Below, in pieces: positions 1-12,667 of a stretch of DNA of 45,808 nucleotides (position 1 is the stretch's first letter; each line of letters opens with the position of its first letter). Location: positions 1 to 45,808 of IMG/VR virus record IMGVR_UViG_3300025818_004904; one strand, given 5' to 3'. Position numbers and translations under genes: made by a program. The notes under the pieces were generated by a model, which saw only the letters and a list, made by a program, of their open reading frames with translations, did not search any database and was not told the origin of the DNA. Origin of the DNA: a virus.

Positions 1-975
1 TTTGTAAAGGGCTGTAACAACCACGGACTAAGCGAAGAAGTAGCCAAGAACCTCTGGGCAAAAATGGAGTTCTTCTCAGGCTACGGCTTCAACCTGTCGC
101 ACGCCGTGTCCTACGGAGCAGTATCCTTCCAGTGTGCTTGGTTGAGCTACTACTACCCAGCAGAGTGGATGGCTGCCTTCCTTGACAAGGAGCCAGAAGA
201 CCGCAAGGCACAAGCAATCAATACAGCCAAGTCCTTCGGGTTTAATATTGTCCCTCCCAGCATTAACAAGTCAGGACGTGTTTGGGAAATCGGTGATGAC
301 GGCAAGACGCTTATTCAGCCTCTCGCAGGCATCAAAGGACTTGGGGATAGTGCGATTGACCAGATTATCGACAACAGGCCTTTTGAGAGCGTAGAAGACT
401 TCTTGTTCAACGAGAATATCGTCTATTCTAAACTCAACAAGAAGGCTCTTGACGTGCTGGTCCGCAGCCAATCCCTAACGGAACTAATGGACGAACGCTT
501 CACAGGACTTCGCCACTTCTGGTCAGCGGTTGCTGTCGATCGCCCTCGCAAGGAGAAGAACCTCATTGAGAATATTGAGATGTATGCTCCTGAGGGCGAC
601 TTCTCAGAGGAGGAGAAGATTGAACACTTCGCTTCGCTCACAGGCATCTTCCCTATCCATGAGATTATGCCGCAGGAAATCCAAGACAACCTAATGAACC
701 GAGGCTGCCCTCCTATCAGCGAGTATGACCCCGATCTACAACTGGTCTGGTTCATTCCAAGGGAAGTAAAAGTCAAGAAGACCAAGAACGGCAAGGAATA
801 CTGGATTATCCACACCACCGACAGCAATGCTCACGATGCTCGCATCCGTTGTTGGGGAGTAAAAGAAAACGATAGGATCTCCCTTAACAAAGTGTATGTT
901 GCTAACTTAGAATATAACGAGAAGTGGGGATTCAGCACCCGCTCTATCAAGAGGTCATTTAGGAGGCTCACATGA
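1..975 (+). CDS. dnaE: DNA polymerase III alpha subunit (DnaE-type), 3' part
   Basis: This is the C-terminal part of a C-family replicative DNA polymerase. The frame is open from base 1, so the gene starts outside the window, and 324 residues are visible. The segment around nt 79-120 (GYGFNLSHAVSYG) and the following YPAEWMAAFL are hallmarks of the region after the DnaE catalytic palm. A helix-hairpin-helix (IKGLGDSAIDQII) lies near nt 325-365, and a C-terminal OB-fold-like segment (VKVKKTKNGKEYWIIH) near nt 765-815. The catalytic aspartates and PHP domain lie upstream and cannot be checked. Most large phages use family A or B polymerases, so a DnaE is notable. The stop overlaps the next start (ATGA). 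Confidence 0.93.
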   Translation, partial: FVKGCNNHGLSEEVAKNLWAKMEFFSGYGFNLSHAVSYGAVSFQCAWLSYYYPAEWMAAFLDKEPEDRKAQAINTAKSFGFNIVPPSINKSGRVWEIGDDGKTLIQPLAGIKGLGDSAIDQIIDNRPFESVEDFLFNENIVYSKLNKKALDVLVRSQSLTELMDERFTGLRHFWSAVAVDRPRKEKNLIENIEMYAPEGDFSEEEKIEHFASLTGIFPIHEIMPQEIQDNLMNRGCPPISEYDPDLQLVWFIPREVKVKKTKNGKEYWIIHTTDSNAHDARIRCWGVKENDRISLNKVYVANLEYNEKWGFSTRSIKRSFRRLT

Positions 976-1181
976 GCAGCAAACTACTACAAGCCGCTTT
1001 GTCGAAATACGAAGCAAACCGAGACGAGGCTCTAGCCATTCTCGATGTCTATCTAAACAATTCAGTAGGGATTGGAGAACATTCGAACCTTCTAGAAGAA
1101 GTCACTAAATGGACAGAGGCTTTGACGGAAGCAGAAGAAAATATTGAAACCTTAAATCGCCACTTTAACAACGGAGAATAA
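972..1181 (+). CDS. Small hypothetical protein, 69 aa
   Basis: I do not recognise this protein. It is predicted mostly helical and rich in Glu, Ala and Leu. The ATG overlaps the dnaE stop by four bases, and a perfect AGGAGG lies at 961-966, so it is probably translationally coupled to the polymerase gene. This could be a replisome accessory, but only the position suggests that. Confidence 0.7.
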   Translation: MSSKLLQAALSKYEANRDEALAILDVYLNNSVGIGEHSNLLEEVTKWTEALTEAEENIETLNRHFNNGE

Positions 1182-1183
1182 AA

Positions 1184-1762
1184 ATGGCTAACAATGTGAC
1201 TTTCAGGGCTAATTTTGAACAAATCAACGAAGCAGCACTAGAGAGACTTCAAGAACTTTACAGCCGCTTCCAAGATGACAATTGTAATTTTGGAGATATG
1301 TTTGTAGATGGCGGAGAAGATTCACCAACTTATGAAGAAACAAATAGTCGCAGTTGGTACATTGAAAATGTTGGCAGCAAGTGGTGCTACCTTGAGGAGC
1401 ATGATGAAGAAGGTATCTTTGGAACAAGTGCCTGGGATGCTCCAGAGCTAGGGCTATGCTGGCTAGCCGAACAACTAGGAGAACTTGACCCAGAGCTTTT
1501 AATAAATGTTTCCTATGAAGACGAAGGTCCAAACTTTGTCGGCTGGATGGTATTTAATGGTCCTGATCTGTGGGCAGGAGACATTGCTGAAACAGAAGAT
1601 GAGATCAGGGATATTGTCGGTCGATATTCTCCCGACACCAACCTTGATGATGAAGATGAATATTACGATGCCCTTTGGGAATCTATCAATGACTGGCAGC
1701 GAGACAACCTTGGCCAGATAGAAAAAGATATCATCAACTCAAGGAGTTTTGAAATTGATTGA
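1184..1762 (+). CDS. Hypothetical acidic protein, 192 aa
   Basis: This is a strongly acidic soluble protein with many Asp, Glu and Trp residues and no membrane segment. I do not recognise the family. It begins two bases after the upstream stop, with GGAG in the spacer. Its 3' end overlaps the start region of the dUTPase gene, and the AAGGAG near its end (1741-1746) doubles as that gene's ribosome-binding site. High acidity and a tryptophan-rich core resemble some DNA-mimic phage inhibitors, but that is speculation. Confidence 0.75.
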   Translation: MANNVTFRANFEQINEAALERLQELYSRFQDDNCNFGDMFVDGGEDSPTYEETNSRSWYIENVGSKWCYLEEHDEEGIFGTSAWDAPELGLCWLAEQLGELDPELLINVSYEDEGPNFVGWMVFNGPDLWAGDIAETEDEIRDIVGRYSPDTNLDDEDEYYDALWESINDWQRDNLGQIEKDIINSRSFEID

Positions 1763-2327
1763 TGGAAAAGACTTAGTAAAAGGCGAAGATTGCTTTGGTT
1801 GTGGTTGTAATCTAAAACCAGCTTGCCCAGGATACTGGGACGAAAAAAAGGAAGAAAATAATAAAATGCGTGTAAGAGTCCAACGAGTTCATGAAAATGC
1901 TAAACTACCAAAACGAGCCCATGCAGATGATGCTGGTATGGACTTGTTTTTTTGCCCACCCCCAAAGCCAGAGCTAGATTCTCAGATTGAGACTGTGTTG
2001 CCTTTTGGCTCCTCGATCCTCCCAACAGGACTGAAGATTGAAGTGCCTAAGGGTTATATGCTTGAGATCAAAAACAAGTCAGGCATTGCTTCAAAGCGAG
2101 GGTTGGTTGTTGGTGCTTGTGTGGTTGATCGAGGATACACAGGAGAGATTTTTGTCAATCTTCATAACATTACCCATCGCAACCAAACGCTCCACGAAGG
2201 AGACAAAATCGCCCAGGCAGTTTTTGTAAAAGTCAGGACTGATATTGAGTTGATTGACTCAGACCACATCTATGATGAAGAGACAAGTCGTTCTGACGGT
2301 GCTCTAGGCTCTACAGGCGATCGATAA
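1755..2327 (+). CDS. dut: dUTP diphosphatase (trimeric dUTPase)
   Basis: It hydrolyses dUTP to dUMP and pyrophosphate, keeping uracil out of DNA and feeding dUMP to thymidylate synthesis (a ThyX is encoded at 35022). All five trimeric dUTPase motifs are visible in order: ADDAGMDL, NKSGIASKRGL, VVDRGYTGEIFVNL, GDKIAQAVF and the C-terminal RSDGALGSTG arm. The start is uncertain. TTG 1755 has AAGGAG at 1741-1746 with good spacing, TTG 1749 is too close, and ATG 1866 (MRVRVQRVHENAKLP) matches the usual dUTPase N-terminus and has its own AAGGAAG. If translation starts upstream, the protein carries an unusual Cys-rich prefix (CFGCGC..C). Confidence 0.93.
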   Translation: MIDGKDLVKGEDCFGCGCNLKPACPGYWDEKKEENNKMRVRVQRVHENAKLPKRAHADDAGMDLFFCPPPKPELDSQIETVLPFGSSILPTGLKIEVPKGYMLEIKNKSGIASKRGLVVGACVVDRGYTGEIFVNLHNITHRNQTLHEGDKIAQAVFVKVRTDIELIDSDHIYDEETSRSDGALGSTGDR

Positions 2328-2338
2328 GCAAAGTCAAA

Positions 2339-2349
2339 AACTACTTACT
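2339..2349 (+). promoter_or_regulatory. Candidate AACTACTTACT element before aminotransferase
   Basis: AACTACTTACT lies about 23 bp before the aminotransferase ATG. Similar AACTA(C/T)TTA(C/T) elements occur at 8348, 12614, 15084, 42806 (looser) and 44599, each just upstream of a + strand gene. This may be a phage-specific promoter element. The function is inferred from recurrence only. Confidence 0.35.
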
Positions 2350-2371
2350 TCTAGTCTTCTAGGAGAGGAGT

Positions 2372-3625
2372 ATGTCAAACGAAACATTCAGGAAGGTTCC
2401 CAGGACCGGCGTTGTATATGTTGTACAAGAAGCTTCAAAGCTAGGTTTTTATAGAGGGAATCCTGAATGGGTCAATTTTGGACAAGGACAGCCGCAGACT
2501 GATTTTATAAAGAATGGTGTCGAGCGAATACACAATATTCCAGTAGTCGACGCTGACAACGAGTATGCACCTGTATCAGGATTGCCAGATTTGCGGGAAG
2601 CGATCGCAAATTATTATAATGAAACTTTCCGAAAAGGCAAGAAATCCAAATACACTGCAAAAAACGTCTCAGTAGTATCAGGGGGCAGACTAGCACTCGC
2701 CAGATTGGCGGCTTCACTAGGAAATATTAACTTAGGACACTTTGTCCCAGATTACACAGCCTATGAAGAGCTATTATCGACATTCAACCGCTTCAACCCC
2801 ATCCCAATCCTGCTAGACCCTGAGAAGGGCTACTCTTTCACAACAGAAGATTTGAGAAGAGAAGTCCAGGGTCGTGGTTTGGGTGCCGTTTTGGTATCCA
2901 ACCCCTGCAATCCAACGGGAAAAACTATTAAAGGTAAAGCACTAAAGGAGTGGGTGAGTACTGGACGAGACTTTGACTGCTATATGCTAATGGATGAGTT
3001 CTATAGCTCTTATGTTTATTCTGGGATGCGTTTAGACGAAACTCTCAGTGCCGCAAAATACGTTGAAGACGTAAATGAAGACCCAGTAGTCCTTTTGGAC
3101 GGTGCAACCAAAAACTGGCGTTACCCAGGTTGGCGTATTGCTTGGATTGTTGGACCAGAACACGTCATTGAGAGCGTGACTAGTGCTGGTAGCTTCCTTG
3201 ACGGCGGTGCTTGTCGTCCAGCCCAGCGAGCCATCGTTCCATTGCTTGATCCAGCCAAAGTGCAGCAAGAGACAGCCGCCTTGAAAGCAAACTTCAGGGA
3301 AAAAAGAAGAATAATGTTAGACGGTCTCCAAAAGCTTGGAGTGACCTTCGAAAGAGAGCCGGACGGAGCATTTTATGCTTGGGGTAATGTATCAGCACTA
3401 CCTGAGGGTCTGAATACAGGGATGGACTTTTTCAGAGCCGCTTTGCAAGAGCAAGTTATCGTTGTTCCAGGCGAGTTCTTTGATGTGAATCCTGGCAAGC
3501 GTCGAGGCAAAGCTTCTTCACGATTTAGTCAGCATTTGAGGTTCTCTTACGGGCCAGAAATCAGCACAATCAAGGAAGGAATAAAAAGACTTCAAAAAGT
3601 GGTAGAAAATCATACAAAAACTTGA
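2372..3625 (+). CDS. PLP-dependent class I/II aminotransferase
   Basis: This is a fold-type I PLP enzyme of aspartate-aminotransferase type; 417 aa is full length. Visible landmarks are SGGRLAL at 103-109 (PLP phosphate region), NPCNPTG at 177-183, DEFYSSY from 208 with Asp208 and Tyr211, and the Schiff-base lysine Lys247 in DGATKNWRYPGWR with Arg255. A C-terminal Arg in LRFSYGPE probably binds the substrate carboxylate. Substrate specificity cannot be read from the sequence. AGGAGAGGAG precedes the ATG. A full-length aminotransferase is unusual in phage. It could serve amino-acid metabolism, cell-wall precursor change or a DNA hypermodification pathway, but no partner nearby decides this. 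Its stop codon lies inside the next promoter's -35 box. Confidence 0.92.
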   Translation: MSNETFRKVPRTGVVYVVQEASKLGFYRGNPEWVNFGQGQPQTDFIKNGVERIHNIPVVDADNEYAPVSGLPDLREAIANYYNETFRKGKKSKYTAKNVSVVSGGRLALARLAASLGNINLGHFVPDYTAYEELLSTFNRFNPIPILLDPEKGYSFTTEDLRREVQGRGLGAVLVSNPCNPTGKTIKGKALKEWVSTGRDFDCYMLMDEFYSSYVYSGMRLDETLSAAKYVEDVNEDPVVLLDGATKNWRYPGWRIAWIVGPEHVIESVTSAGSFLDGGACRPAQRAIVPLLDPAKVQQETAALKANFREKRRIMLDGLQKLGVTFEREPDGAFYAWGNVSALPEGLNTGMDFFRAALQEQVIVVPGEFFDVNPGKRRGKASSRFSQHLRFSYGPEISTIKEGIKRLQKVVENHTKT

Positions 3626-3649
3626 CACACCCTTTGCCTGTGGTAATAT
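3622..3649 (+). promoter_or_regulatory. Sigma-70-type promoter, conserved cassette 1
   Basis: TTGACA at 3622-3627, a 16-bp spacer and TAATAT at 3644-3649, with a TGG extended -10. A leader with AAGGGGAGA follows before the ATG at 3671. The -35 box contains the TGA stop of the aminotransferase gene. The same layout recurs seven more times in the window. Confidence 0.85.
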
Positions 3650-3670
3650 ACTATTGCAAAGGGGAGAACT

Positions 3671-3898
3671 ATGGAAGTCGGTAAAAAAGTAAGACTTACA
3701 GGCATCACCCGTCACGGCAAGAATCGTGTTCGTGAACAAGGGGACATCTGGGAAGTCATTCGCATGAACCCATCAGTGTCTTTCAAGACAAACGCTCCTG
3801 GACCTTTTATGTTGCTCCAGGCAACCACCACCATCAATATGCGGTGGGTCTCAACAATTGATGACGACAACTTCTCAGTAGAGGTTATTGATGAGTAA
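3671..3898 (+). CDS. Small GDLV-type protein, 75 aa
   Basis: First gene after the promoter at 3622. It starts VGKKVRLTG, equivalent to the VGDLVR of neighbouring paralogs, and ends with a FSVEVIDE strand. Its beta-rich layout fits a small SH3/KOW-like barrel, but I infer that fold only from the pattern. AGGGGAGA gives a strong ribosome-binding site. The 3' end overlaps the next gene by eight bases. Function unknown; position after a strong promoter suggests early expression. Confidence 0.8.
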   Translation: MEVGKKVRLTGITRHGKNRVREQGDIWEVIRMNPSVSFKTNAPGPFMLLQATTTINMRWVSTIDDDNFSVEVIDE

Positions 3899-4103
3899 AA
3901 ACGAATGGCGTAAAAACCTGAAGGTTGGCGACCTCGTGAGGATGAAGTCTGGACACCTTGCGATCCTGACCGAGGTATATATGCGCTCAACTGGACCTGG
4001 CGGCAGCGAGTATCCGCACGTCAAAATATTATATTGCGATGATCAGTCAGCCGGCGGGTGTAGTGCTTGGCGAGTTGCGGAGGTTCTCAATGAAGCCAGG
4101 TGA
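3891..4103 (+). CDS. GDLV-family small protein, 70 aa
   Basis: The N-terminal part has KVGDLVRMKSG and the protein ends VAEVLNEAR, the two conserved ends of this family. I chose ATG 3891 over TTG 3888 because of AGAGG at 3880-3884. The last codons (GAGGTTCTCAATGAAGCC) encode EVLNEA and at the same time hold the ribosome-binding site and start codon of the next paralog, an arrangement repeated near 6300. Function unknown. Confidence 0.82.
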   Translation: MSKNEWRKNLKVGDLVRMKSGHLAILTEVYMRSTGPGGSEYPHVKILYCDDQSAGGCSAWRVAEVLNEAR

Positions 4104-4296
4104 TTTAGTTAGAATCTCAGACTGGGATGTCAAAGCCAATTTAGGCTGGAATCCCATCGGGCTTGTCTTATCAGAGCCTGAAGTGAAGAACCACGGCACA
4201 ACCTGTGTCCTTGTTGATTGGCTTGAATCACCTGACACCGAGTATTACTCAGTCCATCATTTAGAAGTTATTTCAGGGTCAGGAAAAGGAGAATAA
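4090..4296 (+). CDS. GDLV-family small protein, 68 aa
   Basis: Starts MKPGDLVRISDWD, has a central IGLVLSEPEV strand and ends near LEVISGSGKGE. It overlaps the upstream paralog by 14 bases. The DNA around its start is nearly identical to that of the paralog at 6307, so these are recent duplicates or gene-converted copies. It directly precedes the EcoRI-like endonuclease gene, which starts two bases after its stop. Role unknown. Confidence 0.85.
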   Translation: MKPGDLVRISDWDVKANLGWNPIGLVLSEPEVKNHGTTCVLVDWLESPDTEYYSVHHLEVISGSGKGE

Positions 4297-4297
4297 A

Positions 4298-4804
4298 ATG
4301 GCAGGCGGAATCCAACCAGGGACCACGGCTTGGGACGCTCAGTCACTCAACCACGACAAGGTTGTGCGACTAGCTTCGAAGGAAGCAGAAAAGATTCTCC
4401 AAGAGAGGTATCCTGGCATTCAGCGGCACAATAAGATTATTAAAGAATCTCTTCCAACCAAGATCGGAGCTTGTTCTCCAGACGGTGGCGTCTGGTACTA
4501 TCAAGGGAAGCTGATTGCTGCTTTTGAAGCAAAAAAACAGGGACCAAGAGGGAATGCTATTGAGCGCTGGTACAAAAACTATTTCCTCATTAAAGAGATC
4601 AATGATCGCTGCCCTCTGGTGACCTATGCTATGGGCGAGGGAGTGAGAGAAGGTAATCCCATTCAGGTCATCCTTCACGCTGCCCACAAAGGACAATACA
4701 ACACTTTCCGCTCAGAAGGTCCGTCCTGCTTCCTCAAGGAAGACGGCTTTACGCTAGAGGAAATCCGAGATAGTATAGTTCAGTTCATTGAAAGCGAGAT
4801 CTGA
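4298..4804 (+). CDS. EcoRI/MunI-like type II restriction endonuclease
   Basis: This is a 168-aa PD-(D/E)xK enzyme. SPDGG (Asp62) is followed by FEAKKQG, giving Glu77 and Lys79 as the remaining catalytic residues. Next comes GNAIERWYKN at 85-94, which matches the EcoRI segment GNAIERSHKN. In EcoRI, Asn141, Glu144 and Arg145 of this segment contact the inner AATT of GAATTC, so an AATT-containing target is likely. The protein is much shorter than EcoRI (277 aa) and lacks its C-terminal part, so outer-base specificity cannot be predicted. The methyltransferase gene starts four bases downstream. GGAGAA precedes the ATG. The pair could degrade host or rival phage DNA while the phage protects itself. 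Confidence 0.85.
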   Translation: MAGGIQPGTTAWDAQSLNHDKVVRLASKEAEKILQERYPGIQRHNKIIKESLPTKIGACSPDGGVWYYQGKLIAAFEAKKQGPRGNAIERWYKNYFLIKEINDRCPLVTYAMGEGVREGNPIQVILHAAHKGQYNTFRSEGPSCFLKEDGFTLEEIRDSIVQFIESEI

Positions 4805-4808
4805 AACT

Positions 4809-5735
4809 ATGACAAAGCCACTTTATATGTGGGCAGGCGGCAAGACCCGTATGCTCAAGAAATACGCTGACCTTCTTGAGGGTGTAGCTTTTGATCGTTA
4901 TATTGAGCCGTTCTTCGGCGGCGGTGCAATGTTTATCTGGGCATATCAGAAGAATCCAGATGCTGAGTTTATTATCAATGACATCAACTCAGGTATTATG
5001 AACATTTACACTGCCATCAAGAATGATTGTGATGACTTTGTTGAAGTCTTGGACATTTTGTCTAAAGAATACTTATCTCTCCCAAAGGGGGAGACAGACA
5101 AAAAGTTTGAGAAAGAGAATGAACTAAACTGGGATAAGTTATATCGCCTCCGTCCTTGCCGCCGATACTTTTATTTCAATCTTCGCCAGAAACATGCCTA
5201 CGAATATGAGGGCTGGGGCACAACAAAAGAAGCTGCTGTTTTGTATTTCTTGATGAAAACTGGTTTTAATGGTTTGTGGCAAGAGAACAAAAACACCAAT
5301 GGACGCTTTGGCACTCCTGCTGGCCTTTTGAACCAAAAAGATAAAGTTTATGATAAAGAGGTCGTTGAGTGGTGGCACCATGCTTTACAAAAATGCACAA
5401 TCCTTAGTGGCGACTTCGAGGCAACAAAAGAACACATCAACTCTGATACCTTTTTGTTTATGGATCCTCCCTACAGAGATAGTTTCACTCAGTATGAGAC
5501 TGATTTTAATGACGCCGAGCAGAAACGTGTAATCAGCCTACTAGAAGTTTGCCAGGAACATGGCGGAACAGGATGGCTTTCAAATAGGGAGGCAGGTGAC
5601 GGCTTCTTTGAAGAGAATGCATCAGGATTTACAATGCATAAGTTCCCTGTGACTTATACCGCAGGAAGAAGAAAGAAAGTTGATGATGGCTTCGAAGCTA
5701 AGAAAGCTACAGAAATTCTTTTGGTAACAAAATAA
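4809..5735 (+). CDS. Dam-type (D12 class) adenine-N6 DNA methyltransferase
   Basis: Transfers methyl from S-adenosylmethionine to N6 of adenine in DNA. The N-terminal MWAGGKTRML and EPFFGGG (about 34-39) form the AdoMet region, NDIN at 57-60 is the acidic loop, and DPPY at 219-222 is the catalytic motif; 308 aa is normal for the D12 class. I start at ATG 4809, after the nuclease stop, rather than the upstream in-frame TTG. It probably protects the target of the adjacent EcoRI-like enzyme. EcoRI's own partner methylase is a different class, so this would be a new combination. It may instead be a solitary GATC methylase. Confidence 0.93.
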   Translation: MTKPLYMWAGGKTRMLKKYADLLEGVAFDRYIEPFFGGGAMFIWAYQKNPDAEFIINDINSGIMNIYTAIKNDCDDFVEVLDILSKEYLSLPKGETDKKFEKENELNWDKLYRLRPCRRYFYFNLRQKHAYEYEGWGTTKEAAVLYFLMKTGFNGLWQENKNTNGRFGTPAGLLNQKDKVYDKEVVEWWHHALQKCTILSGDFEATKEHINSDTFLFMDPPYRDSFTQYETDFNDAEQKRVISLLEVCQEHGGTGWLSNREAGDGFFEENASGFTMHKFPVTYTAGRRKKVDDGFEAKKATEILLVTK

Positions 5736-5740
5736 AAAAC

Positions 5741-5768
5741 TTGACCTATCCCTAAACTGTAGTAATAT
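5741..5768 (+). promoter_or_regulatory. Sigma-70-type promoter, conserved cassette 2
   Basis: TTGACC at 5741-5746, a 16-bp spacer and TAATAT at 5763-5768, followed by TGTAAGGGAGAGAG before the ATG at 5790. It belongs to the recurrent promoter-leader family of this phage. Confidence 0.85.
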
Positions 5769-5789
5769 AGTGTTGTAAGGGAGAGAGTG

Positions 5790-5984
5790 ATGAGTGACTT
5801 CAATATGTTTCATGGCGAGCGTGTCAAGTACGCAGGGTACCACCCCCTTTTCCGTGGTAAGAAAGGTGTGGTTGTCGGCGGCGACCACCACAACATTCGT
5901 GTGGAGTGGGAAGGTCATGAAGACTATCCCCCCCGTCTTCACGAGGCGTGGGAAATTGTTTGGCTCGTAGATAGCGGAGAGTAG
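5790..5984 (+). CDS. SH3/KOW-like small protein, 64 aa
   Basis: The centre reads GKKGVVVGG...IRVEWEG, a turn-strand pattern typical of KOW/SH3-like barrels, with GERVKYAG in place of GDLV. It is the first gene after promoter 5741. ATG 5790 is preferred to GTG 5787 because of AAGGGAGA at 5778-5785. It is a divergent member of the surrounding family. Function unknown. Confidence 0.78.
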   Translation: MSDFNMFHGERVKYAGYHPLFRGKKGVVVGGDHHNIRVEWEGHEDYPPRLHEAWEIVWLVDSGE

Positions 5985-5986
5985 TT

Positions 5987-6154
5987 ATGAAAATGAAAGA
6001 GGGTGATCTGGTTCGGCACCTTGAGGATGGTCAAGCAGGAGTTATTGTTCTGTCTTGGGGTGTTATGGATGTTGTAGAGGTTCTCTGGAATGATGGTGAA
6101 GTCAGGGGACAGAACCTCTGCGAACTGGAGTTGATCAATGCAGCAAATAAATAG
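5987..6154 (+). CDS. GDLV-family small protein, 55 aa
   Basis: Encodes KMKEGDLVRHLEDG, then AGVIVLSWG and a C-terminal LCELELINAANK. The start lies two bases after the previous stop. The CTGGAG near its end serves as ribosome-binding site for the overlapping next gene at 6138. One of the shortest complete members of the family, so it may define the minimal domain. Function unknown. Confidence 0.8.
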   Translation: MKMKEGDLVRHLEDGQAGVIVLSWGVMDVVEVLWNDGEVRGQNLCELELINAANK

Positions 6155-6320
6155 GTTCGGTGTCGGTGCCCTAGTCAATGTTGATAAGCATTACAACAAG
6201 ACTTTGGGTATGATTGTTCGTCAAAGCCGTGGGTACAACTGGATTGTCAAACGTATGAACGACGGTCAAAATGTTCTAGCCCACGAAGACAATATGGAGG
6301 TGGTCAGTGAAGCCAGGTGA
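6138..6320 (+). CDS. GDLV-family small protein, 60 aa
   Basis: N-terminal FGVGALVNVDKHYNK replaces GDLV, followed by LGMIVRQSRG and a C-terminal DNMEVVSEAR. It overlaps both neighbours by 14-17 bases. Its end (GAGGTGGTCAGTGAAGCC) is nearly the same DNA as the end of the gene at 3891 and again contains the next gene's start. Confidence 0.8.
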   Translation: MQQINRFGVGALVNVDKHYNKTLGMIVRQSRGYNWIVKRMNDGQNVLAHEDNMEVVSEAR

Positions 6321-6468
6321 TTTGGTTCGGCATCGAGGGAACAAAGAATTATACCTCATACGAAAAATCTTTGAAGCCAGGGGTGAGATTATATGGGTCA
6401 ACCTAGAAGGTATGCCCGAAAACAAGATTCATTATCCAGAATCTCTAGAACTAATACAAAAAGCTTGA
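6307..6468 (+). CDS. GDLV-family small protein, 53 aa, GTG start
   Basis: Reads MKPGDLVRHRGNKELYLIRK and ends SLELIQKA. The GTG start lies inside the 3' end of the previous paralog, with GAGGTGG as ribosome-binding site. The TGA stop is inside the -35 box of the promoter at 6465, so coding and promoter information overlap. Confidence 0.78.
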   Translation: MKPGDLVRHRGNKELYLIRKIFEARGEIIWVNLEGMPENKIHYPESLELIQKA

Positions 6469-6492
6469 CAGCAACCTTATCCGTGATAGTAT
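6465..6492 (+). promoter_or_regulatory. Sigma-70-type promoter, conserved cassette 3
   Basis: TTGACA at 6465-6470, a 16-bp spacer and TAGTAT at 6487-6492, then GATGTAAGGAGAGAG before ATG 6512. The -35 box contains the stop codon of the gene at 6307. Confidence 0.83.
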
Positions 6493-6511
6493 AAGATGTA
6501 AGGAGAGAGAA

Positions 6512-6667
6512 ATGTCGGTTCAAGAACACATCGAAAACATCCTCAACGCCGAAGGTCAAGGCGCACTTGACGCTTGGTATGTTGCCATCCACGAGCACCC
6601 TCAAAGTGCTATGGATATCCACGATGAGGTTGTTGATCACCTTGTCGCTAACACCTTCATGTACTAA
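6512..6667 (+). CDS. Small helical protein, 51 aa
   Basis: A short acidic, helix-prone protein (ILNAEGQGALDAWYVAIHEH is typical). It does not carry the GDLV signature of its neighbours. It is the first gene after promoter 6465, with AAGGAGAGAG as ribosome-binding site. I do not recognise it. Confidence 0.68.
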   Translation: MSVQEHIENILNAEGQGALDAWYVAIHEHPQSAMDIHDEVVDHLVANTFMY

Positions 6668-6677
6668 GGAGAGAGTG

Positions 6678-6941
6678 GTGCTTTACGGCGAAGAACTTCT
6701 CAAGTCAATTCAGAACCGCTGCCGTATCCAGCCTGGTATGCTGATTCGCAGCCGACCAGAAGGTTTTGGAGAGAATGCCCCTCACGGCGGTAAGGTTGCT
6801 CTTGTCACGAAGGTGTCTCCTGGCTGTAAGTTTAGCCAAGACTACGAAGGTGCAGAAGAACACATCTTTTATGTCTGTGAGCCCTTTGACGGCACAAATG
6901 AGTTCGTAGATTATGTTTGCAATATGGAGCAGGTATCGTGA
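6678..6941 (+). CDS. GDLV-family small protein, 87 aa, GTG start
   Basis: RIQPGMLIRSR takes the place of PGDLVR, followed by GKVALVTKVSPG, and the protein ends VCNMEQVS. GTG 6678 is chosen over GTG 6675 because AAGGAG at 6666-6671 then has six bases of spacing. Overlaps the next gene by four bases. Confidence 0.75.
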   Translation: MLYGEELLKSIQNRCRIQPGMLIRSRPEGFGENAPHGGKVALVTKVSPGCKFSQDYEGAEEHIFYVCEPFDGTNEFVDYVCNMEQVS

Positions 6942-7198
6942 AGGTCGGGCAGATTGTAAAAATAACACCCAAGGCTTTAAACAAGTTCGCTCCTGGCATC
7001 CGCAAACGACTTGAAGGCTCAATTGGTCTGGTGGTCAAGGAGAAGTATGACCTCTCCTATAGGATTGACCAAGACAAACTCCCAGAGCGGGTCAAGGTTT
7101 ATCCATCTGCTGTTCAGTTCAATGAACTAGAAGACATTATGGGTTGCGAGGACAACACTATCATGCTCTTTGCAAATGAGGCAGAGGTCTTATCATGA
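6938..7198 (+). CDS. GDLV-family small protein, 86 aa, GTG start
   Basis: MKVGQIVKITPKALNKF at the start, GSIGLVVKEKYD in the middle and NEAEVLS at the end give the family pattern. The GTG overlaps the previous stop (GTGA). GAGGTCTTATCATGAAT at its 3' end again encodes EVLS and supplies the ribosome-binding site and start of the next gene. Confidence 0.78.
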   Translation: MKVGQIVKITPKALNKFAPGIRKRLEGSIGLVVKEKYDLSYRIDQDKLPERVKVYPSAVQFNELEDIMGCEDNTIMLFANEAEVLS

Positions 7199-7392
7199 AT
7201 CCAGGTGATTTAGTTCGCATTAGAAAGACAGCGATTGACGAGTATTCAATTGACTGGTTTATTTATCTCGCAGAAAAAAAGGCTCCTCTGCTTTTGATGG
7301 AAAAGATTAATAAGCAGCACTGGAAAGTTATGCGACCTGACGGCAGCACCTGCTTTCTTTCAGAGCGGAAACTTACGAAGAGGCTGTGGTAA
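7195..7392 (+). CDS. GDLV-family small protein, 65 aa
   Basis: Begins MNPGDLVRIRKTAIDEY and later has HWKVMRPDGS, a strand-turn typical of the family's second half. It overlaps the upstream gene by four bases (ATGA) and the next by one (TAATG). The C-terminus diverges from the LEVS ending. Function unknown. Confidence 0.82.
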   Translation: MNPGDLVRIRKTAIDEYSIDWFIYLAEKKAPLLLMEKINKQHWKVMRPDGSTCFLSERKLTKRLW

Positions 7393-7628
7393 TGCAACGA
7401 GAAACATACAACTCACGGCTCAATATGAATCCAGACAATGTCAAGCCAGGAACGCTACTACGGGCAAAGAAGTGGTGTCGAAACAATATCACTATTCGCA
7501 AGAATGGCGAGTATGCTATCATTGTACCAGCAAAAGAAAAGTATTCTGAGTATGATGTTATGTTCCCCAGCGGGATGAGGATTATGTATATGGCGATCAA
7601 CTGGGAGGTGATGAGCAGTGTTGATTAA
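7392..7628 (+). CDS. GDLV-family small protein, 78 aa
   Basis: A 14-residue N-terminal tail precedes VKPGTLLRAKKWC, then GEYAIIVPAKEK and a C-terminal INWEVMSSVD. ATG 7392 is supported by GAAGAGG at 7377-7383; GTG 7386 is too close. GGGAGGTGATG near its end forms the ribosome-binding site for the gene at 7618. Confidence 0.77.
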   Translation: MQRETYNSRLNMNPDNVKPGTLLRAKKWCRNNITIRKNGEYAIIVPAKEKYSEYDVMFPSGMRIMYMAINWEVMSSVD

Positions 7629-7857
7629 AGATAAGATGTGGAAAGTCCAGCAGCCTGGAACTATTTTACGAGCCCGTCATAGTGCTCGCCGTGGTCAGTT
7701 GGCTTTGGTTCTTGCGAGACCCTACTCCGGCCCTCGCCCAAGCAATGGCTATCCCCCCAACCAGTATGTAAAGATGCAGATGATCTCAACCGGCGAGAGG
7801 ATTGAGGAATCACTCACTAACGCCAACAACTGCTGGGACATCGTTAGCGAACCCTGA
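7618..7857 (+). CDS. GDLV-family small protein, 79 aa, GTG start
   Basis: QQPGTILRARHSARRG, GQLALVLARPYSG and a C-terminal NCWDIVSEP follow the family order. GTG 7618 is favoured by GGAGG upstream, although TTG 7621 or ATG 7636 could be used. Overlaps the upstream gene by 11 bases and is the last gene before a new promoter. Confidence 0.75.
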   Translation: MLIKDKMWKVQQPGTILRARHSARRGQLALVLARPYSGPRPSNGYPPNQYVKMQMISTGERIEESLTNANNCWDIVSEP

Positions 7858-7890
7858 CGGCAAACAAAAACTATAATAATAAAAAAACCC

Positions 7891-7899
7891 TGCTATACT
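7891..7899 (+). promoter_or_regulatory. Extended -10 promoter
   Basis: TGCTATACT is an extended -10 (TGn plus TATACT) about 20 bp before ATG 7919. No convincing -35 box is visible; the upstream stretch is A/T-rich. Confidence 0.55.
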
Positions 7900-7918
7900 T
7901 TACAAAAAGGAGAAAGTT

Positions 7919-8080
7919 ATGAGCAACCCAGAACTTAAGCCAGGAACCATGGTACAACACCCAGCATCAGGCGACACTGGTCAGCTACTAGGACCTTTTG
8001 TTCGCAAGGGCGAGCGATGGTGGACTGTGAATTGGCAAGAGGGCGGCACCCTAGCACACAAAGAAGACGAAATCCAATAA
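7919..8080 (+). CDS. GDLV-family small protein, 53 aa
   Basis: LKPGTMVQHPASGDTGQLLG is followed by RWWTVNWQEGGT and ends HKEDEIQ. It has its own promoter (7891) and AAAAGGAGAAAG ribosome-binding site. The Trp-rich second strand resembles SH3-like barrels; fold inferred only. Confidence 0.75.
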   Translation: MSNPELKPGTMVQHPASGDTGQLLGPFVRKGERWWTVNWQEGGTLAHKEDEIQ

Positions 8081-8085
8081 ATCAT

Positions 8086-8113
8086 TAGACACAGAAAAAA
8101 CCTGTGTTATAAT
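8086..8113 (+). promoter_or_regulatory. Sigma-70-type promoter with 16-bp spacer
   Basis: TAGACA at 8086-8091 (five of six to TTGACA), a 16-bp spacer and consensus TATAAT at 8108-8113, with TGT as extended -10. The spacer length matches the eight main cassettes, but the leader differs. Confidence 0.7.
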
Positions 8114-8131
8114 GACGTGGAGGTTGCTCTT

Positions 8132-8335
8132 ATGGCTCTCAAGTCAAAATACAGCCCTGGACAACTCGTCGAGATTACGATTGCCGGGCAACGCTATGTT
8201 GGGCTAGTTTTATCAACTACCCCAGCACCACGAAGAGCAATGAGCCCGATGTTAAAAGTCGAATGGACTGGCGAAGCCCCTCGTGATTATCAAGTTGAGT
8301 ATATCTCAGAAGAGGGTTTGCGGCTGGTGAAATAA
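8132..8335 (+). CDS. GDLV-family small protein, 67 aa
   Basis: KYSPGQLVEITIAGQRYVGL is followed by LKVEWTGEAP and the C-terminal YISEEGLRLVK. ATG 8132 is placed eight bases after GGAGG (8119-8123); the upstream in-frame GTG overlaps that site. Last member of the first array. Confidence 0.77.
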   Translation: MALKSKYSPGQLVEITIAGQRYVGLVLSTTPAPRRAMSPMLKVEWTGEAPRDYQVEYISEEGLRLVK

Positions 8336-8341
8336 CCTACC

Positions 8342-8377
8342 TCTCCGAACTATTTACTATGTAATAGATTTCGGAGA
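8342..8377 (+). other. Inverted repeat upstream of ftsH
   Basis: TCTCCGAA at 8342-8349 and TTCGGAGA at 8370-8377 are a perfect 8-bp inverted repeat. An inner pair, CTATT and AATAG, lies at 8350-8354 and 8363-8367. No T-run follows, so this is not an obvious terminator. It could be an mRNA hairpin or operator. Confidence 0.6.
8348..8360 (+). promoter_or_regulatory. Candidate AACTATTTACTAT element before ftsH
   Basis: AACTATTTACTAT lies inside the hairpin above, about 28 bp before the ftsH ATG. It is one of six similar elements; see 2339, 12614, 15084, 42806 and 44599. Confidence 0.35.
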
Positions 8378-8388
8378 AACCCGCTCAC

Positions 8389-10215
8389 ATGCCTATTAGT
8401 AGCAAAAACAAAAGTTTAGTTATATGGTTTATCGTTGTTGTTGCTGCTTTTTTCGTGTTGAGCGTCGGGACATTCGAGCCTCCCACTACAGTTGAGAAGG
8501 TCTCCTACACACAGATAATCAAGATTGTCGAGGAAGCCGAAGAAGCCAATAAGGACGCCTCTATTCTCATTCAGGGAAACCAATGGGAACTAAAAATAGA
8601 GGGCAAAACCTATATTACAACGGCTCCTTTAACTGATAAAACAATAGAAGACCTATCCAAGCACAAGAACCTAGAGATAAGGTTTTTGGAGCCCAAGCAG
8701 CCATCCATCTGGGTGACTGCCCTAATATCGTGGCTTCCGTTCTTAATAATATTTTATTTTGTTTATCGCTTTTTTAAGAACGCTCCAAAACTAGGCGGCG
8801 GAGGCGCTGGACGACTTGACGACTTTGGGAAGTCAGGTGCTACAGTCATTATGCCGGGTCTAGACGCCTACAAGTTTGATGACGTTGCTGGCTGCGACGA
8901 AGCCAAAGAAGAACTGGAAGACCTTGTTGAGTTTTTGCGGAACCCAAAAAGATTTACAGATATGGGCAGCAAACTTCCAAAAGGTGTTCTATTACACGGG
9001 CCTCCTGGAACAGGCAAGACACTACTAGCCAAAGCAATGGCTGGCGAAGCAGAAGTCCCGTTCCTATTGGCTGCTGGCTCAGACTTCGTAGAAATGTTTG
9101 TTGGCGTAGGTGCTTCCCGTGTCCGTGATTTATTCGACCAGGCTTATCAACTTGCTCCCTGCGTAGTCTTCATTGATGAGATCGACGCCATCGGCAAGAA
9201 GCGTGGCGGACCTGGGGGCGGAGGCAATGACGAGCGAGAGCAGACACTCAACCAAATGCTTGTCGAAATGGACGGCTTCGCAGACAACTCAGGCATCATC
9301 ATTTTAGCGGCTACAAACCGAGTAGAAATGCTTGACCGAGCCCTTACCCGCCCTGGACGCTTTGACCGCAAAGTTTCGGTTGGATTGCCCGATGTAAATG
9401 GGCGGCAACAAATATTAAAGATACACACACGCAACGTCCCCGTTGCTGAAGACCTAGACCTAGAACTCATAGCCAAAACAACACCGGGCTTCTCAGGTGC
9501 TGACCTATCCAACCTCGTCAATGAGGCTTCCATCATAGCAGCCCTAGACGAAGCACCCGTAGTTGAGAACTACCACTTCGACCAAGCCAGAGATAAAGTC
9601 ACTATGGGCAAACCTCGCAAGTCAATGAATATGAGCGAGGAGTCTAGACGTGCTACAGCAATCCACGAAGCGGGACACGCTCTGTTGGCTTACTACCTAG
9701 AGGACGCTGACCCTCTACACAAGGTCACCATCATTCCTCACGGCAGAGCCCTCGGCTTAACAATGCAACTCCCAGAAGACGACAAATATTCGTGGAGCAA
9801 AAAAGAAAACATAGCAAGAATCAAAGTATTGCTGGGTGGCTACATCGCAGAGAAAATGTTTTACGGGATTGAAGGCACATCAACAGGCGTATCAAATGAC
9901 TTATTACGAGCCAAACAAATAGCCGAGACAATGGTTAAGGACTACGGAATGGGCTCAGTCGGTCCAGTTTATTTCGGCAATGCCGACGCTTACGGCAATC
10001 GTGGTGCTGATATGTCTGACTTCACCAAAGAGCAGTTCGACACAGCCGTCAATGAGATTATGACCCAAGCCCTGCGGGAAGCAGAAGAACTGCTCAATGA
10101 AAAGCGAGAGCACATCGTCATTCTAACCAATATGCTCTTGGAGCAGGACACAGTCCTAGAGGAAGAGTTGGAAGGTATGTTCGGTCTCCTCGACATTTAT
10201 TTTGAGGAAGACTAA
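8389..10215 (+). CDS. ftsH: ATP-dependent zinc metalloprotease FtsH
   Basis: Membrane-anchored AAA+ protease that unfolds and degrades proteins. The 608-aa protein looks complete: membrane segments at about 9-27 and 106-126 flank a periplasmic domain, Walker A GPPGTGKT is at 204-211, Walker B VVFIDEID at 259-266, and the second region of homology [14 protein letters not shown] is present. The zinc site is HEAGH at 426-430 with Asp504 (VSNDLL) as likely third ligand, so it should be active. It lacks the long C-terminal tail of host enzymes. A phage FtsH could remodel the host protease pool or membrane quality control; cyanobacterial photosystem repair is one known host role for FtsH, but nothing here indicates that host. 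It is a single-gene unit with a recurrent element upstream. Confidence 0.97.
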
Positions 10216-10223
10216 AATAAAAC

Positions 10224-10251
10224 TTGACCGATAGAAACCCTGTGGTAATGT
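10224..10251 (+). promoter_or_regulatory. Sigma-70-type promoter, conserved cassette 4
   Basis: TTGACC at 10224-10229, a 16-bp spacer and TAATGT at 10246-10251, with ACAGGGAGGAAGG before ATG 10274. Confidence 0.8.
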
Positions 10252-10273
10252 AGTATCACAGGGAGGAAGGTAT

Positions 10274-10789
10274 ATGAATATCTTTGCTATTGAAGGCGAT
10301 GCCGAGACTGGTCAAATTGACTGGGAAGCATCTGCTCGTTCTCAAGACAACTTGCGGGTCGTCAAAATGATCCTAGAGTCATGTCAGATCCTATCCACAG
10401 TATTGAACGAGCAGGGGATGAAAGCGCCTTATCGCTCCTTCAATCCAAAGCACCCTTCGTGCCTGTGGGCTGCCGAGTCAGCCAACAACTTTACCAACCT
10501 TGCTCTGCACTGTCAGGCAATGATTGACGAGTACGAGCATCGCTTCGGCAAGACACACAAGTGCCAAGCAGTGCTTCAAAAGCTTATTGAGATGTTTGAC
10601 CCTGATCTGTTTCCACAGCAGGAATGTACTCCACTGCGGCTCGCTATGCCTGATGAGTTCAAGTCAGACAATCCAGTCGTATCCTACCGCAAGTTCTATG
10701 CTGCGAAGCCACGACTACGATACCCAGCAGACAAAGTGCCTGACTGGGTCTATGAATACCGCACCGAACCTTTTGAGCTTGTAGCATAA
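10274..10789 (+). CDS. Conserved phage protein of unknown function, 171 aa
   Basis: The ordered motifs VKMILESCQILS (about 30-41), HPSCLWAAES, RFGKTHK and LRLAMPDEFK followed by SYRKFYAAK are, to my recollection, shared with a widespread family in marine phages. I cannot assign a reaction. The conserved His, Lys, Arg and Trp residues suggest a nucleic-acid enzyme or binding protein rather than a structural protein. First gene after promoter 10224; GGGAGGAAGG gives a strong ribosome-binding site, which suggests early expression. Confidence 0.82.
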   Translation: MNIFAIEGDAETGQIDWEASARSQDNLRVVKMILESCQILSTVLNEQGMKAPYRSFNPKHPSCLWAAESANNFTNLALHCQAMIDEYEHRFGKTHKCQAVLQKLIEMFDPDLFPQQECTPLRLAMPDEFKSDNPVVSYRKFYAAKPRLRYPADKVPDWVYEYRTEPFELVA

Positions 10790-10799
10790 GGAGTTGTAA

Positions 10800-10979
10800 A
10801 TGAGCTTAACACTAGACGAATACCGTGAGATTATTGCTTGGTATGCGAAGACAAAGTATTATGAACAAAAGTACGGCAATGCTGCTCCGCCAGTCGATAG
10901 GGACTTTGAGAATCGCATTCATCGCAAACTAAGAGAAAGTGTAAAGCATGACGAACAAGAAGCACAAGAAGAAGCTTAA
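10800..10979 (+). CDS. Small hypothetical protein, 59 aa
   Basis: A charged, helical protein starting MSLTLDEYREIIAWYAKTKY and ending with Glu/Ala repeats. It starts ten bases after the upstream stop, preceded by AAGGAG. Its last 32 bases overlap the next gene. Not recognised. Confidence 0.65.
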   Translation: MSLTLDEYREIIAWYAKTKYYEQKYGNAAPPVDRDFENRIHRKLRESVKHDEQEAQEEA

Positions 10980-11229
10980 ACGAGCGGCAAAAAAGAAAAA
11001 AGATAAAGCCCAAGCACAGCAACAGCAAGAGCAACTGAAAAAACAAATGAACATGTTTGACAGATTGCCAGAAGCATGTAATACTTGCGGCGAAGAATTC
11101 CCAAAGACCCGTGAAGCCCATATGTCTTGGCGAGTCACAGTGCGAAACAAAGAACAACAAGTTAGGCTATTCTGCCCTGACTGCCTAGAGAAAGCAAAAG
11201 AATTTGTGGAGGAACACAATGAAGTTTAA
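10948..11229 (+). CDS. Lys-rich zinc-ribbon protein, 93 aa
   Basis: The first 35 residues are Lys-rich with a Gln run, and the C-terminal half has CNTCGEEF and FCPDCLEKA, four cysteines in CxxC pairs that likely bind zinc. A basic tail plus zinc ribbon suggests nucleic-acid or ribosome binding. It overlaps the IMPDH-family start by 11 bases, so the two are likely coupled. Confidence 0.72.
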   Translation: MTNKKHKKKLKRAAKKKKDKAQAQQQQEQLKKQMNMFDRLPEACNTCGEEFPKTREAHMSWRVTVRNKEQQVRLFCPDCLEKAKEFVEEHNEV

Positions 11230-12259
11230 AGAAGCAGTAACTTACGACGACATGCTCTTGGTGCCCCAGTACAGCGACATCAAAAGCCGAAGTGAAGTAA
11301 ATCTTAGCAGCGATCTATCTGCCCACGTTACGCTTAACTTGCCTATTCTGTCTGCTCCGATGGACACAGTATGTGAAGGGGAGATGGCGGTCACCATGGC
11401 ACGTAATGGCGGCATGGGAATCATTCATCGCTACAACAGCATCGATGAGCAAGTAAGACTAGCTAGAGAGGTTTCAGCCCGAGGCGAGAGTGTTTTTGCT
11501 GCTGCTGTGGGAGTCACTGGCGATTACCAAGAGCGAGCAGCATCTCTTATTGATGTTGGTGTTAATACATTGTGTCTAGATGTCGCTCACGGGCACCACA
11601 TCTTGATGAAGAATGCCCTCCAACATCTACGAGCGAAGTTTGGATCTTCTATTACGCTGATCGCAGGGAATGTCTGTACCGTAGAGGGAGTAAATGATCT
11701 TGCTGACTGGGGTGCTGATGCTGTCCGAGCCAACATTGGCGGCGGAAGCATTTGCTCAACCCGCATCGTCACGGGTCATGGACTCCCAGGACTCCAGACC
11801 ATTTTTGATTGTGCTCGAACTGACCGAGATGTGAAGATCATTGCTGACGGCGGTATCAAAACCTCTGGCGACATTGTGAAAGCTCTAGCTGCTGGTGCTG
11901 ACTTTGTAATGTGCGGCTCTCTCCTTGCGGGAACCGAAGAAAGCCCAGGACTAGTCATCACCATGCCTGACGGCACCCGAATGAAAGAGTATCGAGGCAT
12001 GGCTTCCAAGGATGCCCAAATGAGTTGGCGAAATCGGTCATCAACTCCAGAAGGTGTTGCTTCCTACATTCCTTACAAGGGAAGTGTCGTAGATATTCTC
12101 CGTGATTTGGAAGGCGGCATTCGCAGCGGACTATCCTATACAGGTGCTCGCAACCTCGCCGAACTCCAGAACAATGCTCAGTGGTCTCGCCAGACTTCAG
12201 CAGGAACTGTTGAGAGCGGCACCCACATTCTCACTGCTCAAGATGGGCGGAGGAAATAA
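11219..12259 (+). CDS. IMP dehydrogenase/GMP reductase family protein
   Basis: A 346-aa TIM-barrel enzyme of purine metabolism. The start [15 protein letters not shown]-like region, the catalytic loop GGGSICSTR with Cys179, [20 protein letters not shown] and YRGMASKDA are all diagnostic. There is no CBS domain insert, so it has GMP-reductase-like length, but the C-terminus [13 protein letters not shown] resembles IMPDH (ITSAGLRES). The flap [12 protein letters not shown] lacks an obvious Arg-Tyr dyad. I therefore leave the direction (IMP to XMP, or GMP to IMP) open. ATG 11219 has GGAGGAA upstream. A phage copy could raise or rebalance guanine nucleotides for DNA synthesis. Confidence 0.93.
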
Positions 12260-12261
12260 AA

Positions 12262-12594
12262 ATGTTTTATCGCAAAGACGGAAAAGAACAGCAAGACGAA
12301 ATCAATCGTACCCCAACTCAAGATGAAGTTCAATACGGACCTAATCCAAAGTGCTTTGAAGTTCATGAAAAGTGGCAAGTAGAGTGCGATCAAACTAGCT
12401 GCCGTAACTGGATGAACTACGAGGGAGATTTGAACTGTGCAATGGTTTGTGCAAGAAAATATCCAGCAGGTTTAAGCTTACGAGAAGTTGCTGATAGAAT
12501 GGGTGTGAGCTTCCCAAGAGTGAGCCAAGTTGAGCATGGAGCATTCAAGAAAATGAAAGACATGGGTCTAATTCAGGATTTAGTAGATGAATAG
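12262..12594 (+). CDS. Sigma-70 region-4-like HTH protein, 110 aa
   Basis: The C-terminal half, LSLREVADRMGVSFPRVSQV followed by EHGAFKKMKD, matches the helix-turn-helix of sigma-70 region 4. The first half has several cysteines (ECDQTSC..NC..VC) that may bind a metal. Small region-4-only proteins in phages can act as transcription regulators or alternative sigma parts; I infer a transcription role. It starts two bases after the upstream stop, so it belongs to the same operon as the IMPDH-family enzyme. It is a candidate factor for the AACTA(C/T)TTA elements that begin just downstream. Confidence 0.75.
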   Translation: MFYRKDGKEQQDEINRTPTQDEVQYGPNPKCFEVHEKWQVECDQTSCRNWMNYEGDLNCAMVCARKYPAGLSLREVADRMGVSFPRVSQVEHGAFKKMKDMGLIQDLVDE

Positions 12595-12613
12595 GTCCTT
12601 TTCCAATATAACA

Positions 12614-12624
12614 AACTATTTATA
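12614..12624 (+). promoter_or_regulatory. Candidate AACTATTTATA element
   Basis: AACTATTTATA lies about 43 bp before ATG 12668, in a 73-bp gap after the HTH gene. It matches the elements at 8348 and 15084. Confidence 0.4.
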
Positions 12625-12667
12625 TTTGATTGCCTTTGGCGTCGAATAAAACAAGGAGTAAATTACA

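Follow-up and report, generated by a model that had tools for sequence, protein, structure and literature searches.

Introduction

Integron gene cassettes form promoter-poor rows of genes that are gained, lost, and reordered singly at a shared joint. Among phages, the promoter early stem-loop (PeSL) elements that T4-like phages carry (Arbiol 2010, Comeau 2014) are described as mobile regulatory cassettes built of promoter-terminator motifs (PMC4503421, PMC5348500), and the start-associated (SAS/ESAS) repeats of Cluster K mycobacteriophages are 13-bp sequences, GGGATAGGAGCCC, located mostly in intergenic gaps of >50 bp (PMC3203893). At the protein level, MotB, an early protein of T4 whose N-terminal domain is predicted to be SH3-like/KOW, is a DNA-binding protein that increases the fitness of the phage and is toxic to its host, E. 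coli (PMC7827196, PMC6070864). Here, we describe array 1, a row of small genes in the viral IMG/VR record IMGVR_UViG_3300025818_004904, a 45.8-kb stretch of DNA that we refer to throughout as the window. Array 1 lies between an aminotransferase gene (to 3625) and an FtsH gene (from 8389), and genes of its family, both here and in related arrays, are in many cases joined by a short DNA seam that codes for protein in both neighbors at once.

Phage genomes are patchworks of small genes, mostly without a known function, and it has long been asked how such genes can be exchanged while operons stay intact. A translated, dual-coding linker that is common to hundreds of gene pairs makes the joint itself visible, and thus breakpoint position, frame preservation, and translational coupling become directly testable. 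An original prediction, made from the sequence of the window, placed about a dozen small proteins at positions 3671–8335. These bounds are correct, with a1 starting at 3671 and a14 ending at 8335, and there are 14 candidate small barrel genes between them (a1–a14); what had been left unmentioned is that the array also contains a nuclease-like open reading frame (ORF) followed by a Dam-family methylase gene (together 4298–5735), as well as an unrelated 51-aa ORF. None of the records searched in this work is a verified complete genome, and all start codons are predicted.

A Dual-Coding Seam Joins Neighboring Genes

The N-terminal GDLV, central GLVL, and C-terminal LEV(I/V/L)S motifs on which the predicted family was based are all real, as is the protein family itself; however, the likeness running from GDLV to LEVIS is partly that of one dual-coding DNA seam and not of protein homology alone. 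The canonical seam ([T]GGAGGTGATCARTGAARNNNGGTGAYYTNGT) is ∼32 bp long and contains a 14-nt gene overlap. The upstream gene ends in E-V-I-S-E-(A/S)-R-stop, and the identical bases supply an extended Shine-Dalgarno sequence, the start codon, and the first residues, M-K-(P/V)-G-D, of the next gene. Specifically, the left half of the seam is the extended Shine-Dalgarno sequence GGAGGTGATC, complementary to the 16S rRNA 3′ end, whose bases also code for E-V-I-S, the final strand of the upstream protein; the middle comprises the start codon and the 14 nt read as both E-(A/S)-R-stop and M-K-(P/V)-G-D; and the right half contains the codons for the downstream protein's GDLV strand. GGAGGTGRTC is an extended Shine-Dalgarno sequence. 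At the junction between a6 and a7, the a6 frame reads ATG GAG GTG GTC AGT GAA GCC AGG TGA (M-E-V-V-S-E-A-R-stop), and the a7 frame reads GTG AAG CCA GGT GAT TTG GTT (V-K-P-G-D-L-V). Similarly, a2 ends in LNEAR-stop where a3 starts with MKPGDLV, and the variant junction seen between a5 and a6 recurs in the related contig L009, where it joins an a5-like gene to a member of subfamily s9, s9 to s9, and s9 to s8.

A strict form of the seam pattern occurs in 29 IMG/VR contigs, and in 29/29 of these it lies between two GDLV genes, whereas 85,000 bacterial and archaeal genomes (257 Gb) yielded one match, upstream of an acyl-CoA-synthetase-like ORF that is not a family member. With a relaxed pattern, we obtained at least 120 stretches; at the 76 loci checked among the matches listed, a small downstream ORF was present in 198/198 cases and a GDxV-type upstream gene in 186/198, the remaining 12 looking by eye mostly like contig ends or GSLV-type variants. 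One of these 12 (L059:6959–7219), located within a GDLV array, encodes a GIY-YIG nuclease (PF01541, E = 1e-16) and ends in KKLEVISEDR; it could be either unrelated cargo or an agent of exchange, and because this gene of unrelated fold has a seam-compatible tail, the joint may admit other cargo. Overall, there are at least 280 unique seams in at least 113 loci, the commonest global form being EVISESR-stop/VKVGDLV. In 14 records (≤257 kb), seams lie almost entirely within arrays, and a reversed-pattern control gave 0 everywhere. Among contigs that were not found through the seam, an overlap of exactly 14 nt was present in 16/43 family pairs, compared to 5/162 non-family pairs (p = 1e-8). Codon choice within the seam follows the Shine-Dalgarno sequence, with GAG used at a frequency of 0.96 (0.56 elsewhere in the same genes) and GTG at 0.85 (0.19 elsewhere). 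The seam also offers a simple DNA signature, GGAGGTGATCARTGAARNNNGGTGA, by which uncultured large phages can be searched for arrays of small SH3-like candidate effectors.

Probable Exchange of Cassettes at the Seam

Across ∼30 contigs, the gene order follows a partly conserved frame, s18-s5-[slot]-s3-s6-...-s8-...-s4-s7-s1-s2-s0 (where s denotes subfamilies), in which the slot between s5 and s3 contains from zero cassettes (in the window, L004, and L006) up to four, with joints that are almost all 14-nt overlaps. The seam joins 55 distinct subfamily pairs. We distinguished 28 types of gene gain or loss, 16 of which are bounded throughout by seam overlaps of 11–20 nt; the others have 1- or 4-nt junctions at some of their borders.

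DNA identity profiles locate the borders of these changes. Where the right-hand genes are orthologous and the left-hand genes unrelated, identity is 0.27 as far as −20, 0.27–0.29 to the left of position −12 in all, and 0.70–0.82 in the seam; where the left-hand genes are orthologous and the right-hand genes unrelated, it is 0.69–0.78 up to the seam, followed by 0.37 and then 0.23 past +20. Even when both genes are unrelated, identity is 0.64–0.74 within the seam (−12 to +19, with GGTGA invariant) and 0.25–0.31 outside it. Furthermore, the start of the right-hand protein tends to follow the left-hand gene, K/Q/R-V-G-D being frequent after s5 and K-P (as in K-P-G-D) or Q-P after others, and therefore the left-hand gene writes the first residues of the right-hand protein. 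From these profiles we infer crossover inside the seam, near the GDLV codons; against a firmer reading stand the facts that selection among random joints would likewise favor endpoints of this kind and that seams within a contig are not homogenized.

The original prediction attributed the array to expansion by tandem duplication. This does not agree with the gene orders and gain/loss types, which rule out recent tandem duplication as the main source: the members belong to separate subfamilies whose orthologues are carried by other phages, and what distinguishes one array from another is which diverged cassettes have been gained, lost, or reordered. The only same-subfamily neighbors of note are s9-s9 in L009 and s3-s3 in L038, which are rare, recent-looking tandem copies, and the pair c4-c5 in the second array of the window. 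The history of the array is mostly one in which old, strongly diverged cassettes are shuffled while purifying selection acts on them.

Family Membership and Predicted Fold

Membership was assessed with leave-one-out (LOO) hidden Markov models (HMMs), using 20,000 shuffles and 356 natural decoy ORFs as controls. Genes a2, a3, a5, a7, a9, a10, and a11 score above every shuffle and decoy, and a6, a14, and a8 are exceeded by 6, 63, and 74 of the 20,000 shuffles, respectively (p ≤ 0.004 for all three); scores are weak for a12, a13, a4, and a1. An HMM built from other contigs only places a2, a3, a5, a6, and a7 above 20,000/20,000 shuffles, with a10, a14, and a11 beaten by 3–8 and a9 and a13 by 45–77 of these, and gives no support for a1, a4, a8, and a12. 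A profile–profile comparison of a8 with A2 gave E = 0.0015 over 24 columns. Genes a1, a4, and a12 are weak by sequence alone, and the shuffle and decoy tests, together with the seam shuffles, rule out a chance motif as the source of the likeness. The array genes are real, since they have orthologues in other viral contigs with dN/dS mostly 0.02–0.4. As judged from these sequence comparisons, selection on the cassettes is purifying, and diversifying selection was not seen.

Database searches returned little. No Pfam model, KOW and other SH3-class models included, came at or near its cutoff for ten array genes or for 26 A2 members, and no PHROG with an assigned function was matched, the best hit being a2 to phrog_8500 (E = 6e-4, function unknown) and the rest having E > 0.01. 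A megablast search of positions 1–20000 for close cultured relatives gave no match, tblastn gave none for a3, a10, and a5 and only E ≥ 3 for a2 (mostly mycobacteriophages), and the queried array proteins have no clear relative among 50,697 phage records. BFVD matches with A0A516 accessions were guessed to belong to Rheinheimera Barba phages, for which the protein accessions of one Barba record gave no support.

AlphaFold models both the canonical a3 (pLDDT 86, 26 sequences) and the outlying a8 (pLDDT 88, 11 sequences) as five-strand SH3/KOW-like barrels, the latter with an added N-terminal helix, and in both models a short helix turn precedes the last strand, as in the SH3-like/KOW strand order. 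Their top structural matches are KOW, Tudor, PsaE, NdhS, and R67 barrels (Z ≤ 7.6). Because such small folds give middling scores (Z ≤ 7.6, Foldseek E ≥ 0.0037), the models support the SH3/KOW-like fold class without singling out a particular family, and bear out the idea of one small β-barrel family.

Promoters, Inserted Genes, and Wider Setting

The coordinates of the features are listed in Table 1. A loose promoter pattern occurs at chance level, whereas the tighter TTGAC-N17-TADTAT occurs above it, with 7 exact copies in the window compared to 0.06 expected, all on the coding strand. Three of these head blocks of array 1, 19–21 nt ahead of a start, so that the strong promoters originally proposed are indeed present as promoter-like sites. 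Near-identical elements precede different genes in L004, L006, L009, and L014. The host-σ70 look of these sequences suggests early expression. The exact copies outside array 1 are at 20197, 30192, 36660, and 37831 (all + strand). Terminator-like sites in 3000–9000 number 8, compared to 5.0 ± 2.4 expected.

Table 1. Positions of Array Genes, Seams, Promoter-Like Sites, and Inserted Genes in the Window (LOO, leave-one-out profile)
Feature	Position	Strand	Evidence or remark
σ70-like promoter TTGACA-N16-TAATAT, head of block 1	3622–3649	+	exact TTGAC-N17-TADTAT; same element before a1 in L006
a1 (s18), weakly supported	3671–3898	+	LOO p ∼0.11; orthologues in 5 contigs
a2 (s5), GDLV cassette, left border of variable s5-s3 slot	3891–4103	+	LOO above all controls
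seam a2 to a3, GGAGGTTCTCAATGAAGCCAGGTGATTTAGT	4079–4109	+	overlap of 14 nt; strict pattern but for one mismatch; number expected in shuffles, 0
a3 (s3), GDLV cassette	4090–4296	+	LOO profile; SH3-like model, pLDDT 86
PD-ExK-like nuclease ORF (PDGG...EAK), not a family member	4298–4804	+	sequence motif only
Dam-family D12 N6-adenine DNA methyltransferase	4809–5735	+	PF02086, E = 9e-34; TIGR00571 above cutoff
σ70-like promoter TTGACC-N16-TAATAT, head of block 2	5741–5768	+	TTGAC-N17-TADTAT
a4, weakly supported	5790–5984	+	weak in both profiles; orthologues in L004, L009
a5 (s11), GDLV cassette	5987–6154	+	LOO and other-contig profiles
seam-like junction a5 to a6, GGAGTTGATCAATGCAGC	6127–6144	+	17-nt overlap, shifted stop
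a6 (s15), GDLV-family cassette	6138–6320	+	both profiles
canonical seam a6 to a7, GGAGGTGGTCAGTGAAGCCAGGTGATTTGGT	6296–6326	+	exact strict-pattern match; 0 expected in shuffles
a7 (s9), GDLV cassette	6307–6468	+	both profiles
σ70-like promoter TTGACA-N16-TAGTAT, head of block 3	6465–6492	+	TTGAC-N17-TADTAT
unrelated 51-aa ORF	6512–6667	+	conserved in L006; no Pfam match
a8 (s8), divergent	6678–6941	+	SH3-like model; LOO p ∼0.004
a9 (s12), family member	6938–7198	+	LOO above all controls
a10 (s4), GDLV cassette	7195–7392	+	both profiles
a11 (s1), family member	7392–7628	+	both profiles
a12 (s2), weak by sequence	7618–7857	+	LOO p ∼0.02; orthologues in 17 contigs
a13 (s14), member	7919–8080	+	profiles; not at corresponding place in L004
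promoter-like TAGACA-N16-TATAAT, upstream of a14	8086–8113	+	
a14 (s0), member, last in array 1	8132–8335	+	both profiles
array 2, c1–c7, seven genes of the same family	39717–41367	+	overlap lengths differ; no canonical seam

The nuclease-like ORF inserted in array 1 is, by its motif, a probable restriction enzyme; it has no match in Pfam, NCBIfam, or the PDB, and an EcoRI-like assignment was set aside as resting on the motif with no database support. The window and L006 share one type of nuclease/methylase pair, the L006 nuclease being orthologous, and L009 has none. At the corresponding place in L004 (5979–7635) there is an unrelated nuclease-like ORF, with a methylase carrying a TaqI-like motif (E = 0.013). 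By this comparison, restriction-modification-like cassettes are exchanged at this place inside the array. The window encodes another D12-class adenine methyltransferase (PF02086) at 16689–17486, with no recognized nuclease partner.

In addition to the aminotransferase and FtsH, the window encodes an IMP-dehydrogenase (IMPDH)-like protein, GroEL, a MoxR-like ATPase, and what we take from its translation to be the terminal part of a PHP-type DNA polymerase III alpha. The nearest records are IMG/VR contigs, those with IMPDH and MoxR relatives at 71–85% identity being ≤190 kb and those at 41–62% being ≤257 kb. In L011 (IMGVR_UViG_3300032086_001327), the block from aminotransferase through the array to FtsH is missing entirely between the dUTPase-like and IMPDH-like genes. 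Within array 2, c4 and c5 belong to subfamily s6, whose remaining members are in array 1 of several relatives, L009 and L014 among them; stray family members lie at 21336, 27505, 28505, and 28812. Directly upstream of array 2 is a gene for a SET-domain protein (39390–39683; PF00856, E = 6e-11), and a methylation link between this protein and the adjoining Tudor/SH3-like row would be pure speculation. The array of L092 (IMGVR_UViG_2684622992_000003), with 42 candidate GDLV genes and 23 junctions of exactly 14 nt, adjoins a MoxR/VWA pair resembling that near array 2. Finally, the protein encoded at 30242–31150, behind the promoter copy at 30192, has two zinc-knuckle-like CCHC stretches (weak Pfam zinc matches) and a possible SH3-like stretch C-terminally.

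Proposed Mechanism and Alternative Explanations

We consider it probable, taking all parts together, that array 1 consists of exchangeable SH3/KOW cassettes, with exchange at the seam, coupled translation, and products that act as host-interacting adaptors in an adaptable locus. In this reading, the array is an operon-like row of genes for small SH3/KOW-fold proteins, in blocks headed by σ70-like promoters; the sequences show that a cassette's neighbors vary although the seam persists, with DNA similarity stopping at the seam borders. Exchange would proceed by crossover within the seam through short homology, which would let a gene enter, leave, or change its order with both frames and the next ribosome-binding site surviving, and the overlap would couple the translation of neighbors. 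Least certain are the steps concerning function: the proteins may be early host-interacting adaptors that, like other SH3/KOW proteins such as T4 MotB, bind protein or nucleic acid, with a separate partner for every subfamily. The array itself may be an adaptable accessory locus of the phage that also acquires restriction-modification pairs. Small host-interacting adaptors are our best guess at cassette function, by analogy; charge is uninformative about nucleic-acid binding, as the family net charge centers on zero (mean −0.35), and neither this charge nor the purifying selection lends support to the host-targeting early role suggested in the original prediction. We further propose, tentatively, that the seam is a dedicated modular-assembly joint that combines a recombination linker, stop, Shine-Dalgarno sequence, start, and two SH3-barrel strands. 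If true, large phages could build and rearrange operons containing dozens of small effectors with frames and translation intact.

Several observations weigh against this interpretation. Canonical seams number only two in the window, to which a single related junction can be added, so that the case is comparative and drawn from relatives; most strict-pattern loci were picked through the seam, which biases seam frequencies (the 16/43 figure is unbiased); the pair counts behind the identity profiles are non-independent events; and the Foldseek E-values are weak (best 0.0037), as is usual for barrels of ∼60 residues. In addition, some gains and losses occur at seamless 1- and 4-nt junctions (s4-s7-s1, s7-s16-s1, s8-s12-s10), and these changes can thus do without the seam. 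Seams from one contig also resemble one another no more closely than seams from different contigs do (permutation p = 0.91), so that there is no sign of ongoing homogenization, and translation by itself may maintain the seam. The last two points, as well as the match of the synonymous bias at seam codons to anti-Shine-Dalgarno complementarity, fit a possible, if rather doubtful, alternative in which the seam is a translation signal only: a strong Shine-Dalgarno sequence and a 14-nt overlap would be selected for coupled, stoichiometric translation, with illegitimate recombination, the usual view of mosaic phages (PMC3203893), occurring anywhere. Breakpoints would then look concentrated at the seam because selection keeps only joints with both frames and the ribosome-binding site intact. 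What speaks for crossover at the seam instead is that random joining would seldom recreate the same 14-nt overlap and frame in 55 pairs without a shared pairing sequence, and that the seams of wholly unrelated pairs remain 64–74% identical, besides the invariant GGTGA, against 25–31% just outside.

Two other alternatives concern the function of the cassettes. That they are counter-defense proteins in a defense/counter-defense hotspot, for instance inhibitors that mimic DNA or protein and act against restriction or another form of immunity, is a live rival because this array also houses the nuclease/methylase pair, which L004 has swapped for an unrelated one and L009 lacks. Gene turnover is high and several members are acidic, but the near-zero mean charge and the purifying rather than diversifying selection make this explanation unlikely. 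It is more improbable still that the cassettes assemble with one another, the co-translated SH3-like barrels forming hetero-oligomers and the array a variable multisubunit complex. A precedent is the tetramer of R67 DHFR, a protein to which a3 has a structural match (Z 6.8), and translational coupling favors stoichiometric neighbors; however, the R67 match reflects a common small-barrel arrangement, and free exchange of neighbors would be hard for obligate partners.

Comparison with Known Systems

Array 1 resembles integron cassettes in the one-by-one gain, loss, and reordering of genes at a shared joint, and differs from them in that the joint is a translated seam and the cassettes overlap; no integrase or attC-type site turned up in the window fragment, where no search was aimed at either. 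It resembles T4 MotB in fold class, an SH3-like barrel being predicted in both, but no sequence relationship is shown, and MotB has an added OB-fold and does not belong to a cassette array. The resemblance to the SAS repeats lies in a short repeat with a Shine-Dalgarno core at many gene starts, in different gene families, that has been proposed as a possible recombination target (PMC3203893). SAS is, however, not tied to one fold, and the seam consensus differs from GGGATAGGAGCCC, is coding in both genes, and joins genes of one barrel family. In array 1, as among the small early genes associated with PeSL, modular shuffling of small genes goes along with a conserved regulatory sequence at their borders, and the blocks of array 1 are likewise headed by promoter elements; unlike the promoter-terminator motif of PeSL, the seam lies within two overlapping frames and includes Shine-Dalgarno sequence, start, and stop. 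We found no earlier account of such seams in the open-access literature that was searched. PeSL and SAS are the nearest precedents for border repeats linked to gene shuffling, and neither, as described in those papers, is a dual-coding junction within one family. It is this dual-coding junction inside a single protein family that, by those descriptions, sets array 1 apart from both.

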